A DNA stretch of 55,344 nucleotides from an uncultured Spirochaetaceae bacterium (GTDB lineage: Bacteria > Spirochaetota > Spirochaetia > Sphaerochaetales > Sphaerochaetaceae): contig CALXKJ010000016.1 in NCBI GenBank assembly GCA_944388955.1, positions 1 to 55,344 on the forward strand, given 5' to 3'. Shown here in pieces: positions 12,809 through 41,176 of this stretch. The notes under the pieces were generated by a model. That model was not told where the DNA came from. It did not search any database and saw only the letters and a list, made by a program, of their open reading frames with translations. Numbering within the stretch: the stretch's first letter is position 1; each line of letters begins with the position of its first letter. The position numbers and the translations under genes are program-made.

Positions 12809-14567
12809 GATTCTTCTCTGAAAGCTTTATAAGAAAAGTCCTTCCATGTGGACAGCTTGGCTCCGGAAGCTGGAATACTTTCCTTAGAAGCTCCTCCGCG
12901 CTCCACCTGTCTATCTTATCACCGCTCTTTATCGCAGCACGGCATGCGATGACAGCAAATAATCTTGCTTCAAGATCCTTGTCATCGAGTCTTTCCGATG
13001 TGATGAAATCCACAATCTCTGTTTCGATGCTGCGGCATGAAGCTGGAAGCGCGTTGATTTCCCATTTTCCATCTTCCGTTCTGGAAAGCATGATTCCAAG
13101 TTTCGTATATACTTCGGCGTGCTTTTCCAAAAATGCATCCAGATTGCTGTCAGCTTCGATGGTGATAGGCACAAGAAGATTCTGCACAGTCGTCTGAGAG
13201 AGAAGCTCATCGTAGAGAATGCGTTCATGAGCCGCATGCTGATCCACTATATACAGCTCATCGTTTTTCTGGCATATAAGGAAAAGATTGAAAGCCTGCC
13301 CGATATAGATGATTTCCTCGTCATTATTCTCAACTGGCTGAGCTGGCTTATTGTCGACCTTATAAACACTTTTCTCATGCTTTTCCTTCAGAGCCTTTGC
13401 CTTTTCAAGCCAGAGATTATCTTTCTTGGGAAAAATTGAAACCTGCTCTTTTATCTCCTGCTCTGCACGTGTTGCAGAGGTAGGGTAGGATGATACAGGA
13501 TGATACAGCGGTGTTTCTCCTTTTTCCCTTTCCCCGAGATAGAATTCTGGCTGGAATGGCATGATCTCGGGAATCTTTCTTTTTATTCCATTCTGGAGCA
13601 TCACTGTTATCGCGTGATGTATCTCACCCCGGTTCCGTAGCTTCACTTCGCGCTTTGCGGGATGAATATTGAAATCTGTCAGTTCAGGCGCATCCTCAAT
13701 GAATACAGATGCATATGGGAATGAGCCACCGGGGAGAAGCTCGCCATAACCATAGCTGACAGCCTGCTGAAGTGAGAATTCATCTACAGGACGCTTGTTT
13801 ACATATATCCGGATTTCCTTCCTGTCGGAGCGTTTTACTGATGAGTTGCCTGCAATGATATCTATGGAGAAATCTTCACCGTCAAAATGCAATGATTCCA
13901 CATCAGAATCTGCGATTCCTTCAGTCCTATACAAGAACATGACACGCTCTTTCAGAGATGAGCATCTGGGCCAATCAAGGCGTATCGCTCCATCTACTAT
14001 AAGAGTGAATCTCACAGCAGGGAAGGCTAGTGCTTTAGAAACCAGAAGTGATCTGCATGCCTGAGCTTCGGAAGAGGCCCTCTTAAGGAATGCTCTTCTT
14101 GCCGGTATATCATAGAAGAGCTGCTCTGATGTGATGATTGTTCCTTTATCAATCGAGGAGCTTTTTATTTCCTCGCGTCTTCCATTGTCGATGACAAGGA
14201 CAGAAGATTCTCCAGTCTCCTGAGACTTTGTGTTGACTGTAAGTTTTGAAACAGCACCGATTGAATAAAGGGCTTCTCCACGGAAGCCCAAGGTGCTTAT
14301 CGCATACAGATCATCGGGATTATGAATCTTTGATGTCGCATGTCTCGTGCCAAGGAGTTTCAGATCCTCTCTGGATATCCCTGAGCCGTTATCAGCGACG
14401 GATAGCTTATCGATACCTCCACCATCAATGGAGACTGTGATTTCATCTGCTCCAGCATCCAGCGCGTTATCAAGAAGCTCTCTTAGAACCGACTGCGGTC
14501 TCTCGATAACCTCTCCCGCAGCAATGCGCGAGGAGAGGAGAGGATCGAGAAGATTGATCTTTCCCAT
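12780..14567 (-). CDS. mutL: DNA mismatch repair protein MutL
   Basis: GHKL ATPase that links mismatch recognition by MutS to strand removal. The 595 residues carry the N-terminal ATPase motifs RELLDNALDAGA, DNGSGI, GTRHATSKI and TLGFRGEAL. The C-terminal half has DQHAAHERILYDE (about 440), AACRAAIKSG-like and CPHGRTFLIKL near the end, the signature of the endonuclease-type MutL used where MutH is absent. In the metal motif DQHAX2EX4E the last Glu is Asp here. Its ATG shares one base with the stop of the upstream outer-membrane protein gene (TGATG), so the two are coupled. The upstream AAGGA is about 10 bases from the ATG. Confidence 0.95.
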   Translation of the reverse strand: MGKINLLDPLLSSRIAAGEVIERPQSVLRELLDNALDAGADEITVSIDGGGIDKLSVADNGSGISREDLKLLGTRHATSKIHNPDDLYAISTLGFRGEALYSIGAVSKLTVNTKSQETGESSVLVIDNGRREEIKSSSIDKGTIITSEQLFYDIPARRAFLKRASSEAQACRSLLVSKALAFPAVRFTLIVDGAIRLDWPRCSSLKERVMFLYRTEGIADSDVESLHFDGEDFSIDIIAGNSSVKRSDRKEIRIYVNKRPVDEFSLQQAVSYGYGELLPGGSFPYASVFIEDAPELTDFNIHPAKREVKLRNRGEIHHAITVMLQNGIKRKIPEIMPFQPEFYLGEREKGETPLYHPVSSYPTSATRAEQEIKEQVSIFPKKDNLWLEKAKALKEKHEKSVYKVDNKPAQPVENNDEEIIYIGQAFNLFLICQKNDELYIVDQHAAHERILYDELLSQTTVQNLLVPITIEADSNLDAFLEKHAEVYTKLGIMLSRTEDGKWEINALPASCRSIETEIVDFITSERLDDKDLEARLFAVIACRAAIKSGDKIDRWSAEELLRKVFQLPEPSCPHGRTFLIKLSEKNLREMVGRTR

Positions 14568-17500
14568 CAGAAGGAAATCCTTGATTTGATAGTAAGCGCG
14601 ACTGTGCTATCAGCAGACATCTTCGTGATGTTGATATATTCATCAGGATCTGTTGCGTCAGGGACAAATCTTGTCGCAAGCTCAGCTGTAAAGCCAGCAT
14701 GGCCGAATGAGAAGTCCGCGCCGATTCTGAAGATCGTGTCGTTCTTCATATATCCAAGGAAGTCTGTCTTCTCGAAGAGTGATGGCACGAAGTTCTCCTT
14801 CGCAAAAGATGCGTAGAGCGTAGTCGTGTCTGAAATAGTGCCACTTACCGCAACTGAGAGAAAATCCTCCGGTGCTTTATCTGCAAAAGCCATGACATCA
14901 GCTGCCGTATAAGCGAAGCTGAAGGTGAAGTTATCAAGCAGAATGTCAAACGATGCTTTTCCATAACCCTTGAGAGCAAGATCTACTGACTGAGGATTAA
15001 CAAGTTCATTAAATGTTCCTGCTGTATCATGTCTCATGAGAGTGAACTCATTGAACATGTCCGGTGCAAGACGACCGCTTCTCACTCCACCTTCAAGATT
15101 CAGAGCGAAGACATCGAAATCCAGAGTAAACGCGGCTCCTGCCATCCAGTCTTCCATTCTATTGTTCTCGAAATCGTAGATGATATTAGCGCTATTCATC
15201 TCGCCGTCCTTATAAACAGTGGAGATCTTTCCAAGCGCGTAGATTGAGAACATTACGCTCTTATCTGCAAACGGGAAGTCCATTCTTATCTCAGGATAGA
15301 AGAGAAGCGCGTAATTCTTGAGATCCTTAATGAGCATTTCGCCTGGTACGTTGAAGCGGAGTGCGAAGCCATTGCTGTCTGATGGGTAGAACGCAAGTGA
15401 GCCTTCCACGATATGCGGAGCTTCAGCATTGTCTACATAGACTCCAAGCGAGAGGTTCGGGAAATTGAAGCCAGCACGGAGTGAGAGACTATTCTCTGAG
15501 CCGAAATCAGTGAAGAGCGTACCATTCTTTATGTAATCCCTATCGGCAAGGAGGTAGAGAAGGGTATCTTCTGCATCTCCGAGCTTGATTCTGTCAATCA
15601 GCGCAAATGTATCTGTAACGATTCTGTAGATCTTCTGGTTGTCATTAGCTGTTCCCGTAAGACCGAAATTCCAGATGCTATGACCATTGAAGCCGGCAAG
15701 TACGAATGTGCCATCCAAGTATTCCATCTCAAGAGGAGCACGCAGCGCGAGCATATAATCCTCATTGCCGAATACAACATGCGGTGTGATGAGCATAGTG
15801 GTCTTGTCGTTTCCAAAATCATATCTGAAACCGAGCTCAAGGCTTCCTCTTACAGGGAAGTCTGAGTCGTAATATGTCTTCTCCTTATCTCTTCCAAGGG
15901 CTGAAATTGAGCCTGTGAATGTGAGTGAGAATCTATCCTCACTGTTGTAGCCAAGAAGCATTCTCGATTCCATAGGTCCCAGATCAGCGCCAACGCCAGC
16001 ATAGTACTGATAAGCATTCTTGAAGTCACTGAATGTTGTCCTGAAACCGCCAAGTACCTTAAGACCATAAAGCTGAGCATATGCATTGACTTCAGCATAG
16101 CTGTTCTTGCCGCTTATCGCCTTCTTGTCGAGATCAATATCAAGCCATCCATGGCCTTCGATACCAAAGTAGCCGCAGCTATAACCGGCTTTGGCGATAA
16201 CAGAGATATAATCGCCTCTTTCAGGTGTGAACAGCGTGTTGCCGATCATTCCATAATGCATTCCATCTGTAGAGTATGCACTACCGATTTCTCCGTAGAA
16301 TCCACCCACGCTTACTGGGAGAAGCGCTGTGATGAGCATTCCATCCTGCGGGAATGGCTTAAACGTGAAATCAGCTGATTCAAATGATACAGCTGCTGTA
16401 GCCTTGAGACCGAAATCCACGCTTTCTGAATAGATGAAAGGCACATAAAGCCCGACAGCAGGGTAGAGCATAGTGTCTTTTATAGTGTCCGGTGTGATTT
16501 CAGTTGTGAGACCGATGGTCAGGGAGATTGGATAAGCATCTCCAACACTGAAGCTGATTTCCGCACCACCGGCACCTACTGGCTGTCCGTTTTTCTCTCT
16601 CGAGCTGAATGAAAGATCGTCGAACCAGACACGATGGCTGTAATACTCTGTATCGAGTGTGTGGTTGAATGAAAGCGCACTGTACATGCCATCCCATTCA
16701 TGTCTCTTGTCAGTCGTGAGGCCTGCCATGTCTCCGGCAAGAAGCGTGTATCTGTCAGCTCTTACAGACAGGATATCATTCTCGTAGGATATCTCACTGA
16801 TAAGCGATGCGCCGAAACCAATCCAGTCTGAGATGCTGTATGTGTCATAGTTCTTTACAGTTTCATAAATCTCATAAGGATCTATGTTCAGCCCAAGTGT
16901 GAATGCGCCGACATAGAAATATGGCTGGACAGAAGCCGTGATTGCTTTATTACCTTCTATATCCGCATAAGCTCTTCCATAAATCCTTAAATCAAATGGC
17001 ATTGCTTTTTCTGCTGTACCGGAAACTTCCTGAGAGGGTGATTCAGGAATTTCCTCGCTCGTGCTTTCAATGCCTGGTTCTGCTTCAGCTTCTGCAGCAG
17101 TAGTCTGGACTGGTTCCTCAATGGTAATCTTCCTTGACACAGTCGGCTTTGCCGGGACAGCTGGCTCTTCGATTTCAGCAGTTTCCTCGATTGCGATTAT
17201 AGGATCGAATACAACAGGAGCAGAAGGAGTTGATACCTCTTCCTCCTCACCGATAACTATAGAAGGCTCAAGAACTATAGGAGCATAAGGCGTTGTCTGT
17301 CTTTCAGGAATGACTTCCTCTTCAGCCTCAGGTTCAGCAATGACAACAGGCTCCTCGATTACAGGCTCTTCTGGAATCACTTCAACGACTGGTTCCTCAA
17401 AAACAGGTTCAGCAGGTTCATCAAAGATAACCTTGTCCCCTGTTGATGAATTTGCGTAATATTCAGCCGCACTGGCCTCGGAAACGATTCTCGGCCATGC

Positions 17501-18004
17501 GAGAAGATCGAGTGTCGACATTGATGGCACGTTTTCTCTGATATTTCTCAGTCCATCAAGGACGGTGACATCATTGTCAGAGAAGTTCATGAAAAGCTCT
17601 GCTGTATCGGTTGATGTGAATACGTACTCGCCTCTGCCTGGAAGCTCAGCGGCTATTGATGGCGTGTATACTGTAAGCGATATATCGCTTGTGAGCGTCA
17701 GGCTCATGTCACCATAGACAAGGTAAAGTGAAGGAGAAGCATCCTCATACCCCGTGATGGCGAGAAGGGAATCATCTTTTAGGTAGATATCCCCGAAAAG
17801 CGATGTGAAGCGTTTTCCGTCGCCATCCGTCTGGATAACCATTCCATTCTTTCCGACTGGCTCAAACGCATCGAGCGCGGAGCCGTCAGGGGCATAGAGC
17901 TTCACTCCATCGATATCGCCTTCGCTGATAGTAAGCATGTCAGATGAAGCTGAAATGGCCATTACTGAAAGCATGATCAAAATCACAGATAGGATCTTCT
18001 TCAT
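14567..18004 (-). CDS. Giant outer-membrane beta-barrel protein with acidic proline-rich linker
   Basis: A 1145-residue exported protein that I cannot assign to a named family. Visible parts: signal peptide (about 1-20, MKKILSVILIMLSV... ending ISASS); a beta-rich domain (about 20-170) with FecR-like spacing; an acidic linker (about 180-340) with many EEPV and PAEP-type repeats, long enough to cross the periplasm; and a C-terminal part (about 345-1145) of alternating amphipathic strands with many aromatic residues, ending in Phe (KSRISF) as BAM-inserted barrels do. It is therefore probably surface-located. ATG 18004 is chosen over an in-frame upstream ATG because GAGGGTGAT lies just before it. 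Coupled to mutL by TGATG. Confidence 0.72.
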   Translation of the reverse strand: MKKILSVILIMLSVMAISASSDMLTISEGDIDGVKLYAPDGSALDAFEPVGKNGMVIQTDGDGKRFTSLFGDIYLKDDSLLAITGYEDASPSLYLVYGDMSLTLTSDISLTVYTPSIAAELPGRGEYVFTSTDTAELFMNFSDNDVTVLDGLRNIRENVPSMSTLDLLAWPRIVSEASAAEYYANSSTGDKVIFDEPAEPVFEEPVVEVIPEEPVIEEPVVIAEPEAEEEVIPERQTTPYAPIVLEPSIVIGEEEEVSTPSAPVVFDPIIAIEETAEIEEPAVPAKPTVSRKITIEEPVQTTAAEAEAEPGIESTSEEIPESPSQEVSGTAEKAMPFDLRIYGRAYADIEGNKAITASVQPYFYVGAFTLGLNIDPYEIYETVKNYDTYSISDWIGFGASLISEISYENDILSVRADRYTLLAGDMAGLTTDKRHEWDGMYSALSFNHTLDTEYYSHRVWFDDLSFSSREKNGQPVGAGGAEISFSVGDAYPISLTIGLTTEITPDTIKDTMLYPAVGLYVPFIYSESVDFGLKATAAVSFESADFTFKPFPQDGMLITALLPVSVGGFYGEIGSAYSTDGMHYGMIGNTLFTPERGDYISVIAKAGYSCGYFGIEGHGWLDIDLDKKAISGKNSYAEVNAYAQLYGLKVLGGFRTTFSDFKNAYQYYAGVGADLGPMESRMLLGYNSEDRFSLTFTGSISALGRDKEKTYYDSDFPVRGSLELGFRYDFGNDKTTMLITPHVVFGNEDYMLALRAPLEMEYLDGTFVLAGFNGHSIWNFGLTGTANDNQKIYRIVTDTFALIDRIKLGDAEDTLLYLLADRDYIKNGTLFTDFGSENSLSLRAGFNFPNLSLGVYVDNAEAPHIVEGSLAFYPSDSNGFALRFNVPGEMLIKDLKNYALLFYPEIRMDFPFADKSVMFSIYALGKISTVYKDGEMNSANIIYDFENNRMEDWMAGAAFTLDFDVFALNLEGGVRSGRLAPDMFNEFTLMRHDTAGTFNELVNPQSVDLALKGYGKASFDILLDNFTFSFAYTAADVMAFADKAPEDFLSVAVSGTISDTTTLYASFAKENFVPSLFEKTDFLGYMKNDTIFRIGADFSFGHAGFTAELATRFVPDATDPDEYINITKMSADSTVALTIKSRISF

Positions 18005-18080
18005 AAATATCACCCTCTGAGGCATAATCTGCCTCTTAGGTGAAGTTTAACACAGGAGTGCTATTGAAAGCCACATATTT

Positions 18081-22474: not shown

Positions 22475-23068
22475 CTATACCTCACTATCAATCAAAAGCC
22501 TTAGTCTTCGTGCGGCTTTTCCTCTATGCGAATAGAGATTCTTGCTGTCTCCATCGAGCTCTGCGGCGATGACACCACCAGCTTCCTTTACTTTGAAGAT
22601 CGGGTCGTATCCGAATCCATTCGTGCCTGAAGGCGTAAGTGCAATAGTGCCTTCACATGTTTCTTGTATCATATAGCGCCTGAAAGGGGAGAGTATGAGT
22701 GTAAGGGATGTGACAAAGCATGCTTCTCTGTCATCAATACCTTCTATGTTTTTCAGAAGAAGCATGTATTTTTCCCTGTCGGAAAGCTTTCTTCCTGCTT
22801 CTTCCTCGCCGTAGCGCGCAGTATGTACTCCGGGCTTCCATCCAAGTGCCTTCACGCATAGGCCTGAATCATCAGCAAGAACAGGCTCATGCACGATATT
22901 CCATAAAGCCTCTGCTTTTATAAGGGAATTCGAAGCGAAATCATCGCCATTCTCCTCGGGATTGAATTCTATGCCAGCCTCCTTGGGAAGTATCAGATCA
23001 TAACCTCCAAGGAGCTTCTCCATCTCTGCTTTCTTATGCTCATTACCTGATGCGAACCAGATTCTCAT
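22475..23068 (-). CDS. rdgB: XTP/dITP diphosphatase (RdgB/HAM1 family)
   Basis: House-cleaning enzyme that hydrolyses dITP, ITP and XTP to monophosphates so that deaminated purines are not put into nucleic acid. The 197 residues have the family order: ASGNEHKKAEM at the N-terminus, VLADDSGLCVKALGWKPGVHTARYG (about 63-87, the acidic catalytic site), GTNGFGYDPIF (about 148) and SHRGKAARRL at the end. It lies between the sigma-like regulator (52 bases upstream) and pepF (5 bases downstream). Confidence 0.95.
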   Translation of the reverse strand: MRIWFASGNEHKKAEMEKLLGGYDLILPKEAGIEFNPEENGDDFASNSLIKAEALWNIVHEPVLADDSGLCVKALGWKPGVHTARYGEEEAGRKLSDREKYMLLLKNIEGIDDREACFVTSLTLILSPFRRYMIQETCEGTIALTPSGTNGFGYDPIFKVKEAGGVIAAELDGDSKNLYSHRGKAARRLRLLIDSEV

Positions 23069-23120: not shown

Positions 23121-24125
23121 CTACTTCCCTTCATGCGTGTCCTCTTTGTTTTCCATTACATTCTTAAGCATTGTTTTCACCTTTTTTATATCTGCGGAGA
23201 CCATCGGTCGTGAGACACCGAGTATTTCCGATATCGTCGTGTGATGAAGGCCTGAGTGAGCATGCTGCAAGTCTGAGAGGCGTTTGTCGTAGATTTTCCG
23301 CATCCGTCTATATCGCGTATATAACGCTTCACGCTGTTCCGGGTCGCTTTCGTTTGATGTGGCTATGCCTAGTTTTGATAGGATTGTCCAATGCCTGCCT
23401 GAGAGTTCCTGAAGTGCTTTGATTTCATTCCCGTTCTCATTCATCATCGCTTCATGCCTGAGTGAATAGAAGCGAGAGGCAGTATGGTAGTCTATCCGGA
23501 GCAATCTTGATATCCCTGCAATGAATCCAGGTGTTTCTGTTTCAGGAAGGGCAAGAAGGAACTCGATGAACTGGCGTCGTCGCACTGGCCGTTCAAGGAG
23601 CATTGATAGTTTTCTTTCGCTTTCGGAAAGCGACACGATTTTCTTGCCTTTTCTTCTTATGATGAAATCAGAGATTGAGCCTAAATCCATCTTCTCTACA
23701 GCTTCAGTGCTTTCGGGCGATGAATATGGAATCAGATTCTCGCTGAGCTGTTTTTCATGAATTGTCATATCAGAGAAGATAAGAGCCCTTTCTGTTGCCT
23801 TTCTGCGGCTCTGATTCCTCATGTATCTCATGCAGCGATAGCGGCATGTCTGCTGCAGGTACCGGTTGAATGTCAGACTCGATATCCTGAATGACGCAAT
23901 TATTTCATCTGCATCCTTCTGTATTTCGAGAAAGAATCCGCCCGCATCTTCTTCGGAAATGTAAAGATAGCGCTGCGGTATCAGATAAAGAAGAATCATT
24001 GTCCTCTCTTTTATGCTGTTCTCCAATTTCAGCTTCTCATCTTCGTTTTCCAAGGTATTGTATTTTATTACAAGATTTGTGAACTTCCTGTCCTCTTCCT
24101 CAGAAAAATAACTTAGTGTTTTCAT
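23121..24125 (-). CDS. Divergent sigma-factor-like DNA-binding protein
   Basis: A 334-residue soluble, basic protein. Residues about 40-110 look like sigma-70 region 2: EEDAGGFFLEIQKDADEII, a spaced aromatic cluster, then FNRYLQQTCRYRCMRYMRNQSRR as in the FxxYLxxxxRxxxxxxxRR core helix. The C-terminus (about 290-325) has a helix-turn-helix, HHTTISEILGVSRPMVSADI, as in region 4 or phage-type regulators. About 170 residues between them match nothing I know. It is thus a probable alternative sigma factor or transcription regulator, not certain. A strong GAGGAGGT precedes ATG 24125, but that site can be masked by an upstream hairpin. rdgB and pepF follow. Confidence 0.6.
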   Translation of the reverse strand: MKTLSYFSEEEDRKFTNLVIKYNTLENEDEKLKLENSIKERTMILLYLIPQRYLYISEEDAGGFFLEIQKDADEIIASFRISSLTFNRYLQQTCRYRCMRYMRNQSRRKATERALIFSDMTIHEKQLSENLIPYSSPESTEAVEKMDLGSISDFIIRRKGKKIVSLSESERKLSMLLERPVRRRQFIEFLLALPETETPGFIAGISRLLRIDYHTASRFYSLRHEAMMNENGNEIKALQELSGRHWTILSKLGIATSNESDPEQREALYTRYRRMRKIYDKRLSDLQHAHSGLHHTTISEILGVSRPMVSADIKKVKTMLKNVMENKEDTHEGK

Positions 24126-24131
24126 ATATTT

Positions 24132-24182
24132 ACCTCCTCTTCACCTATAGCATTAATCATGCCAAGGCAGGTTAGAGGAGGT
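24132..24182 (-). promoter_or_regulatory. Hairpin masking the ribosome-binding site of the sigma-like gene
   Basis: On the minus strand ACCTCCTCT (24182-24174) is a perfect 9-bp complement of AGAGGAGGT (24140-24132), which contains the Shine-Dalgarno of the gene starting at 24125. Three more pairs (ACC with GGT, up to 24171 and 24145) extend the stem after a small internal loop; the terminal loop is about 25 bases. The structure would hide the ribosome-binding site. Confidence 0.65.
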
Positions 24183-24197
24183 TTGTTTATGTAATAT

Positions 24198-24203
24198 ATT
24201 ATA
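24198..24203 (-). promoter_or_regulatory. Putative -10 box for the sigma-like gene
   Basis: A perfect TATAAT on the minus strand in an AT-only stretch, with a poor -35. Transcription from near 24191 would produce a leader that contains the whole masking hairpin. Confidence 0.4.
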
Positions 24204-24223: not shown

Positions 24224-25228
24224 TTAATTTTTAAACACCTGTCTCAAATCTGAGATTGCGGATTCAAGCTTTGTAAGAATCAGGTGTTTAGCTTCCGTAA
24301 TATTGATAGCTTTGACTGTCGCACCTGCGGCACATTTATGACCACCTCCACCTAGTGATGAAGCGATGGCTCCGACATCAAGTCCTGACCTGTTCTTCGC
24401 TCTGAATCCGATTTCAATCGCATCGCCTTTGTCTTTGAAGAAAACAACAGCTATGACATTTTCTGCTGTCAGCAGTGAAGCATACACGCCGTCGCTCAGC
24501 TTCTGATTCATCGCATCTGAGCTCTGGTAAGCGAAAAGTACAAGGCCATCAAGCATCTCTTCCGCATGCTCTATGATGGAAGCTATCATTTTCAGATCCT
24601 CAAGCTTCATTCCATCGTGCATCTCGTCATAGATGTCATATGGAGATATCCCAAGATCAGTGAATGAAGCAACGCGCCTGAGAGAATCAGGAGCCTGTTT
24701 CTCGGAAAGAAAATGATAGAATCCTGTATCGGTAGCGAATCCCCTGTAGAGATAATCAGCCATCTTCTTTGTCAGAGGAACACCAAGACTTTCTCTGACT
24801 TTATCAACAAGAAGGGTCGTGGAAGGGGAGTCTGGCACAATATAACTCATTCCTTCATCTGTGAAGGGAATACCTGAAGAGTGATGGTCAATGACTATTC
24901 TCTTTGCATTGATAAGTTTCTCAAAAGGTTTCCCAGGTCTGTCAGGGGTAGAGCAATCAAGGATTATCACCAATAGGGAATCATCGATGAATGACTCCTC
25001 GATTTCGTCATTGAAAAGACTTTCATATGCTTTGATGTCGCTTCTGTCGAATTTTCCTTCGTTTAAAAGTGCTGATTCAATACCAAAATACGAAAGCACC
25101 TCCCTCATGGCGAGGGAGGAATAAATTGCATCCCCATCGGGATTCCTGTGAGCTATAATCGCGGCTTTTCGTGCCCCTTTTATTGCATTCAGTAGTCTTT
25201 CGTCACACTGCGGAAATAAGTTTTCCAT
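24224..25228 (-). CDS. DHH/DHHA1 phosphoesterase, NrnA-like
   Basis: A 334-residue DHH-superfamily phosphoesterase. The N-terminal motifs are [16 protein letters not shown] (about 26-41), [11 protein letters not shown] (about 90), VIDHHSSG (about 111-118) and a TDTGFYHF segment (about 170); the C-terminal DHHA1 domain ends in [13 protein letters not shown]. This order is that of bifunctional oligoribonuclease/pAp phosphatases, which finish RNA turnover or recycle pAp and some cyclic dinucleotides; the exact substrate is not visible. Its start overlaps clpX by 26 bases, so it is the distal gene of the trigger factor-Clp unit. Confidence 0.85.
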
Positions 25229-39744: not shown

Positions 39745-39830
39745 CAATGAAATCGTATTAAAAGTGATAGGAAGTAGTCAATGAAGATAGATAATGGCAA
39801 TGTGTTGTTTATGTGTTAATATGTAATTGA

Positions 39831-39891
39831 CCGTATATGCCTGCGATACGGGCAGGTGTCTCTACAGGAAGCCTTAAACTCCAAGCTACGG
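39831..39891 (+). promoter_or_regulatory. Purine riboswitch aptamer, guanine class
   Basis: The three-way junction can be read: P1 CCGTA (39831-39835) with TACGG (39887-39891); P2 CCTGC (39840-39844) with GCAGG (39852-39856) closed by L2 GATACGG; J2/3 TGTCTCTAC; P3 GGA (39867-39869) with TCC (39880-39882) closed by the family-standard L3 GCCTTAAAC; J3/1 ends in C (39886) before the P1 T. That C is the base that pairs with guanine, where adenine switches have U. The guanine deaminase Shine-Dalgarno lies 4 bases beyond P1, so control is probably translational. Confidence 0.85.
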
Positions 39892-39904
39892 CCTAGGAGG
39901 CTGT

Positions 39905-41176
39905 ATGGTGTTATATGCGATTAAAGGTGATTTCATCTGGACAGAGGATCCTTCTTCTTTCAAGTACAGTGCAGATAGTTACCTCATTGTTCAGGATGGG
40001 CGATTCTTGAAGTTTTCCTCATCATGTCCCGATTGTCCCATTCTTGATTACTCTGGTCATCTTATAATCCCCGGACTTTCGGATCTTCATCTGCATGCAC
40101 CTCAGTATGCCTTCATGGGACTGTATATGGATGATGAGCTGCTGAAGTGGCTTGATGAGCATACATTCCCGGAGGAGGCGAAGTACAGGGATCTTTCATA
40201 TGCAGAGAAGGCCTATTCAATATTTGTCTCTGATTTGCTGAAGACACCTACCTCAAGGCTGTCTGTCTTCGGTACAATACACACGGACGCAACGCTGATG
40301 CTGATTAATAAGCTTGAGAGCGCTGGATTCTCAGGATATTGCGGCAAAGTCAACATGGACAGGAATTCACCTCCATTCCTCACAGAGAGCACATCGGAAT
40401 CAATAGAAGAGACATATCGCTATCTTGAGAGCTGCCGCACTGTGAATATGAAGCCAATCGTAACGCCTCGGTTTATTCCATCATGCTCCGATGAGCTTCT
40501 TTCCGAACTCGGACGGATTGCTGTGAAATATGTTCTTCCTGTCCAGTCTCATCTCGACGAGAATCTTTCCGAGATAGAATGGGTTAAGTCACTTATGCCA
40601 GAAGCGGAAAGCTACACCGACGCTTATCTCAGGATGGGACTTATCGGTAAGACCCCTTCCATAATGGCTCATGCCGTGTGGGTTACTGATGATGAGATTC
40701 CAATTCTCAGAAATAGCGGCACCTTCATCGCGCATTCGCCGTCTTCCAACTACAATCTATCATCAGGTATCGCACCTGTGAGGAAACTGCTGTCAGAGGG
40801 AGTGAATACAGGACTCGGCACCGATGTCGCAGGCGGCTCATCGCTTTCCATTCTCTCCGTGGTAAGAGATGCGATAGCCGTGAGCAAGCTCCGCTGGCGT
40901 CTTGTTGATGACAGCTTTAAGCCGCTTACGCTTTCAGAGGCTTTCTATATGGCGTCAAAAGGCGGAGGCTCATTCTTTGGAAAGACAGGCTCATTTGAAG
41001 AAGGCTATGACGCGGATTTCTCTGTTCTCGATGAAAGTGATATAGCGACACCGCTCTCTGTCTCTCTCTCGCTTCCTGAGCGTCTTGAGATCTATATATC
41101 GAGATCCTCGGAGAAAGCCGTGAAAGCGAAAAGCATAAAAGGAAAGATAGTTCACTGCTCTCATCAAAAGGAGTAA
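39905..41176 (+). CDS. guaD: Guanine deaminase
   Basis: Zinc amidohydrolase converting guanine to xanthine and ammonia. The 423 residues have the metal motif GLSDLHLHAPQYAFMG (about 56-72), the central SHLDEN (His) near 218, AHAVWV (His) near 258, and GTDVAGGSSLS (Asp) near 306, in the order of family guanine deaminases. AGGAGG lies 4 bases before ATG 39905, directly after a guanine aptamer, which strongly supports the substrate. The hydrogenase regulator gene follows after only 20 bases with no terminator. Confidence 0.93.
   Translation: MVLYAIKGDFIWTEDPSSFKYSADSYLIVQDGRFLKFSSSCPDCPILDYSGHLIIPGLSDLHLHAPQYAFMGLYMDDELLKWLDEHTFPEEAKYRDLSYAEKAYSIFVSDLLKTPTSRLSVFGTIHTDATLMLINKLESAGFSGYCGKVNMDRNSPPFLTESTSESIEETYRYLESCRTVNMKPIVTPRFIPSCSDELLSELGRIAVKYVLPVQSHLDENLSEIEWVKSLMPEAESYTDAYLRMGLIGKTPSIMAHAVWVTDDEIPILRNSGTFIAHSPSSNYNLSSGIAPVRKLLSEGVNTGLGTDVAGGSSLSILSVVRDAIAVSKLRWRLVDDSFKPLTLSEAFYMASKGGGSFFGKTGSFEEGYDADFSVLDESDIATPLSVSLSLPERLEIYISRSSEKAVKAKSIKGKIVHCSHQKE

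Follow-up and report, generated by a model that had tools for sequence, protein, structure and literature searches.

Bacteriophage T4 offers a known case of a promoter that decides whether a message can be translated, since for gene e, and also for soc, 49 and I-TevI, early read-through transcripts hide the ribosome-binding site in a hairpin, and late promoters within the hairpin give rise to messages in which that site is free (PMC3014915). A second relevant case is the rpoS gene of Borrelia burgdorferi, which has a sigma-54 promoter and is also carried on a long sigma-70 transcript whose inhibitory 5' structure is relieved by DsrA (PMC11109971, PMC3966842).

Here we report the computational analysis of a locus in an uncultured Spirochaetaceae bacterium, within a stretch of 55,344 nucleotides (contig CALXKJ010000016.1, positions 1 to 55,344; hereafter the window). 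Our computations, together with a predicted transcription start, present this locus as a chromosomal, family-wide sigma-54 version of gene e-type control. As in gene e, the start region is sequestered in longer transcripts and an internal promoter is predicted to yield a transcript that lacks the 5' arm of the hairpin; unlike gene e, this is a bacterial chromosomal gene that uses sigma-54, is found family-wide and sits in a housekeeping operon. The likeness to Borrelia rpoS is that a spirochaete uses sigma-54 to drive a sigma-70-family regulator whose longer transcript has an inhibitory leader, whereas the locus differs in that no sigma-70 promoter is supported, the predicted sigma-54 start is at the Shine-Dalgarno sequence (SD), and the protein is divergent and ECF-like. 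There is also a resemblance to insulation by an intrinsic terminator, as the gene would be shielded from upstream transcription and some relatives have a terminator in the same gap, but the hairpin would stop translation rather than transcription, leaving the downstream rdgB gene transcribable. We know of no chromosomal sigma-54 example of promoter-in-hairpin control, within the bounds of a limited literature search.

Results

The gene in question (23121–24125, minus strand) encodes a 334-aa divergent protein of the sigma-70 family (ECF-like). The match of residues 42–322 to the NCBIfam model TIGR02937 (sigma70-ECF; E 1.9e-9, 37.3 bits) is below the curated cut-off of 42.9 bits, and 21 of 23 homologues match the same model at E ≤ 0.01, which is in keeping with the sigma-like identity that had been proposed from the sequence of the window. 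Structural approaches contributed little: the AlphaFold model was too uncertain (mean pLDDT 63), a fold search was uninformative, and a profile search of solved structures returned weak helix-turn-helix matches and nothing better. The gene lies in a co-directional series, tig-clpP-clpX-nrnA, the sigma-like gene and then rdgB-pepF. The gene for an nrnA-like DHH/DHHA1 phosphoesterase (24224–25228, minus strand), which is the presumed source of read-through, ends 98 nt upstream of the sigma-like start codon, and the rdgB/Ham1 gene (22475–23068, minus strand) starts 52 nt downstream of the sigma-like gene. Orthologues are nearly always preceded by nrnA and, where the downstream side is visible, followed by rdgB.

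On the minus strand of the leader, ACCTCCTCT (24182–24174) is perfectly complementary to AGAGGAGGT (24140–24132), which is the ribosome-binding site with its SD core AGGAGG at 24138–24133, and the hairpin has inner pairs CCT/AGG(T) and GGCAT/ATGCT. The nine-base pairing over the ribosome-binding site reported in the initial annotation is therefore confirmed, and with it the sequestration of that site; the leader RNA folds with −27.7 kcal/mol compared with −15.8 ± 3.0 for dinucleotide shuffles (z −4.0), none of 200 being as good. At 16.7 kcal/mol the cost of opening this SD is by far the highest among the 22 window genes with a clear SD, the runner-up costing 9.5. The exact 9-bp arm pair (spacing 5–30) has no second copy elsewhere in the genome and is not conserved in relatives; what is conserved instead is sequestration of the SD or the start codon.

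Within the loop of the hairpin is a canonical sigma-54 promoter, TTGGCATGATTAATGCT (24165–24149, minus strand), which fits both GG-N10-GC and the TTGGCAY / TGC consensus, with the −24 GG at 24163–24162, just downstream of the 5' arm, and the −12 GC at 24151–24150. A TTGGCAY-N6-TGC element occurs 21–39 nt before the start in most of the 47 genus orthologues in a leader alignment, and of 40 further family loci, in other genera, most likewise have a sigma-54 element ahead of the start. Matches to the strict motif YTGGCAYN6TGCW numbered 14 genome-wide versus one for the reversed control, rpoN is present in 47 of 48 genus genomes, and the window's own genome encodes RpoN and four to five AAA+ activators. 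A candidate enhancer (UAS) for such an activator is AGACAGGTGTTT (24244–24233, minus strand), which lies within the final codons of nrnA and forms an imperfect palindrome of type TGACANNTGTCA. An enhancer of a sigma-54-dependent promoter would be looked for 80–150 bp upstream; in many genus mates of the sigma-54 type, palindrome-like sites of this kind are centred about 100–118 nt ahead of the start, with the conserved site at about 113 nt.

Where would transcription from this promoter begin? Sigma-54-driven sRNAs from the same family calibrate the usual spacing between −12 and +1, as their conserved RNA sequence sets in at a median of 12 nt past the −12 C. On that basis we predict the start at 24138, 12 nt past the C of the −12 GC. 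This position falls on the SD itself, and because it is downstream of 24174 the anti-SD strand should be missing from a sigma-54-initiated mRNA; a start so placed is what the initial annotation had named as evidence against its own proposal of a translational switch. The predicted effect is large, as opening the translation start of the window gene costs 17.4 kcal/mol in read-through RNA versus 0.5 in RNA begun at the sigma-54 start. In nearly every member of the family the 5' arm is upstream of the predicted sigma-54 start, in differing registers: in the window's genus it is mostly immediately upstream of the −24 element, and in genus g16 its place is downstream of the −12 element and ahead of the start, with the start codon often its pairing partner.

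The hairpin is a genuine feature, and family-wide it is clearly selected. Seven genera contributed 56 leaders of the sigma-54 type; in read-through RNA their translation start takes 13.2 kcal/mol to open, compared with 7.9 when the upstream sequence is shuffled and 4.2 in RNA from the sigma-54 start, and 64% of the leaders are individually at p ≤ 0.05. With sequence ahead of the predicted start these start regions form 9.9 pairs, versus 0.9 with the UTR, and the excess in opening cost persists in a null in which the promoter is held fixed (13.2 versus 8.4 kcal/mol). When each start region was joined to its own or to relatives' upstream sequence, its own paired better (z 14.3 over the 56 leaders; 9.0 in genus g1, 4.1 in g16 and 5.8 in the other genera) with the arm sequences themselves differing. 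The same holds within the window's genus, where over 44 members shuffling the upstream sequence lowers the SD opening cost from 8.6 to 4.9 kcal/mol (59% individually at p ≤ 0.05) and the swap test gives 8.3 for own versus 6.1 for relatives' upstream sequence (z 7.1). The pairing is thus maintained by covariation, which answers the question of conservation in relatives that the initial annotation had raised.

This property is specific to the gene. Purine-rich control sites showed no preference for pairing with their own upstream sequence, sequestration is rare at the other SDs in these loci (9–14% at p ≤ 0.05), and a sigma-70-like gene that in 29 genus mates has a sigma-54 promoter just as clear gave 8.7 versus 7.9 kcal/mol shuffled, with a swap z of 2.2. 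An earlier swap test on SD pairing probability had reached only p 0.10. An initial reading, in which the hairpin merely accompanies the sigma-54 promoter, was reversed by the opening-cost, duplex and translation-start tests.

Sigma-54 appears to be used more widely in this genome. Other intergenic sigma-54 sites lie before an Hsp20 gene, a sigma-70 factor and two small RNAs; the promoters before the gene for the sigma-70 factor (291 aa) and the Hsp20 gene are at C17:20061, C4:30954 and C17:23552 (L074, L065 and L049, respectively). That of the 291-aa factor was found in 29 of 29 genus mates examined, and an NtrB/NtrC-like pair is encoded near that gene. Together these suggest that sigma-54 heads a stress cascade in this organism.

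Discussion

We propose that the locus filters messages by where they began, such that RNA read through from the operon goes untranslated and sigma-54-initiated mRNA is translatable, and we would give this reading a probability of roughly 0.7. RNA entering from the upstream operon would carry the 5' arm, which would fold onto the SD or start codon and block translation. When RpoN and an enhancer-binding protein fire the loop promoter, the transcript would begin at or just before the SD, without the 5' arm, and would be translated, so that probably only messages begun at the loop promoter are used to make the protein. The sigma-like gene would then answer sigma-54 activation alone while rdgB-pepF would still be supplied by read-through. 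The hairpin, the promoter motif and its conservation, the rpoN and activator genes, the covariation of upstream sequence with start region and its restriction to this gene are direct results of our computations. From these we infer where transcription starts, that read-through RNA exists and how each transcript fares in translation.

The principal rival is the one favored in the initial annotation, a conditional translational switch in which the normal mRNA contains the full hairpin and heat, an sRNA, a protein or a ligand opens it. Two of its elements, the sequestered ribosome-binding site and the covarying pairing, stand, but the need for such an opening is not supported, given the sigma-54 promoter inside the hairpin and its predicted start. 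In its favor, a covarying hairpin is also found in genus members that have no canonical sigma-54 element, a TATAAT hexamer at about 24202–24197 would place an RNA start directly ahead of the 5' arm, and Borrelia rpoS is a precedent for a long form relieved by an sRNA (PMC3966842, PMC11109971). Against it, the hexamer that the window offers for an rpoS-type dual promoter is not enriched across relatives, upstream −10 boxes do not exceed what base composition predicts (4.09 versus 4.23) and a simple scan found no upstream sigma-70 promoter; in addition, the sigma-54 start of nearly all members is predicted to fall downstream of the 5' arm, in differing registers. An RNA thermometer (ROSE, FourU and similar) is unlikely because the SD remains paired in long RNAs even at 70 °C (unpaired probability 0.00 at 30–60 °C and ≤ 0.01 at 70 °C). 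A metabolite riboswitch fares no better, the arm sequences being unconserved with no conserved aptamer and no Rfam family, and Rfam gives no known switch or thermometer at the window leader. Overall, we regard a conditional switch as unlikely, at about one chance in six.

Could the inverted repeat act as DNA, or serve another gene? In the window its two arms lie symmetrically about the promoter, as would suit an operator bound by a repressor or activator, but a protein-binding site would be expected to conserve its sequence, whereas here the arms vary by species, the register shifts and what is kept is complementarity to the SD or start codon, which leaves an operator very improbable. We hold it just as improbable that the hairpin marks an mRNA 3' end or an RNase III site for the clpX-nrnA RNA, with the SD pairing incidental: it does come directly after nrnA, in a gap that contains an intrinsic terminator in some relatives, but the pairing tracks the SD or start codon as position and flanks change, and no U-run was found 3' of the window stem. 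Least probable of all is coincidence between a purine-rich SD and a pyrimidine-rich tract upstream of the −24 element. The upstream region is indeed pyrimidine-rich and chance alone should yield a 9-bp match at some place in a genome; a single species could still be a chance case, but for the family coincidence is refuted statistically by the composition-preserving nulls, the comparisons of own with swapped sequence and the matched control gene.

A broader reading, which we hold with somewhat less confidence than selection by transcript origin itself but still consider the likelier case, is that a sigma-54 promoter inside a coevolving start hairpin constitutes a family-wide bacterial checkpoint by which a sigma-like regulator within a housekeeping operon obeys sigma-54 only, with evolution exchanging the hairpin for a terminator or dropping it once the gene moves. 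Among sigma-54-type members, by the full start-region measure, the hairpin z-score is 1.2 with an intrinsic terminator between nrnA and the gene (n = 13) and 3.1 without one (n = 43; p 0.0006), the terminator-bearing species being largely of one clade, a large one that contributes half of them; when all genus members were scored on the SD only, hairpin strength was unrelated to whether a terminator was present (p 0.35). The hairpin excess is gone (z 0.4 and −0.2) in two species in which the gene has been relocated and has no nrnA/rdgB neighbors (L023 and L026).

If translation is indeed selected by transcript origin, a tightly controlled regulator could be kept inside a constitutively transcribed operon with transcription downstream unblocked, the RNA itself telling where transcription started. 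The phage T4 mechanism would thereby be linked to the sigma-factor cascades of cells, and there would be an explanation for SD hairpins otherwise liable to be scored as thermometers or riboswitches in scans. Cultured relatives should permit direct testing.

Exceptions exist. Several sigma-54-type members (L004, L022–L026) show no hairpin excess, and L027–L030 have terminator and hairpin together. In L027–L031 and most of the distant part of the genus (L035–L046) the hairpin is kept and the sigma-54 element is degenerate or absent; selection by transcript origin, as it stands, does not explain these loci, and they leave room for a conditional switch. In six loci of the distant part (L039, L041–L044 and L046) the −24 GG is replaced (approximately TTTCCMC), with the TTGC and a spacing of about 11 nt to the SD retained, and those genomes have canonical sigma-54 promoters elsewhere.

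Other RNA elements

Two tandem sigma-54 promoters without an ORF occur in the window's own genome (G000:C5:62194-62430; L066 and L067) and in relatives (L075–L082 and L176–L205). Each leads to a conserved small RNA that carries an anti-SD stretch (..CAACAAACCUCCUUUU.. and ACAGAGCAACAGUUUUUCAUACCUCC.., respectively) and to a terminator-like hairpin; a search for the exact pattern of the first located it in 33 family genomes out of 139, spread over two genera. Neither has an Rfam family, and they look like an undescribed pair of sigma-54-driven sRNAs. In the window itself, another sigma-54-like site, TGGCACGAGACATGC (14352–14338, minus strand), is situated past the end of the 14567–18025 ORF, and a purine riboswitch aptamer (Rfam RF00167, 47.3 bits) is present at 39811–39908 on the plus strand.
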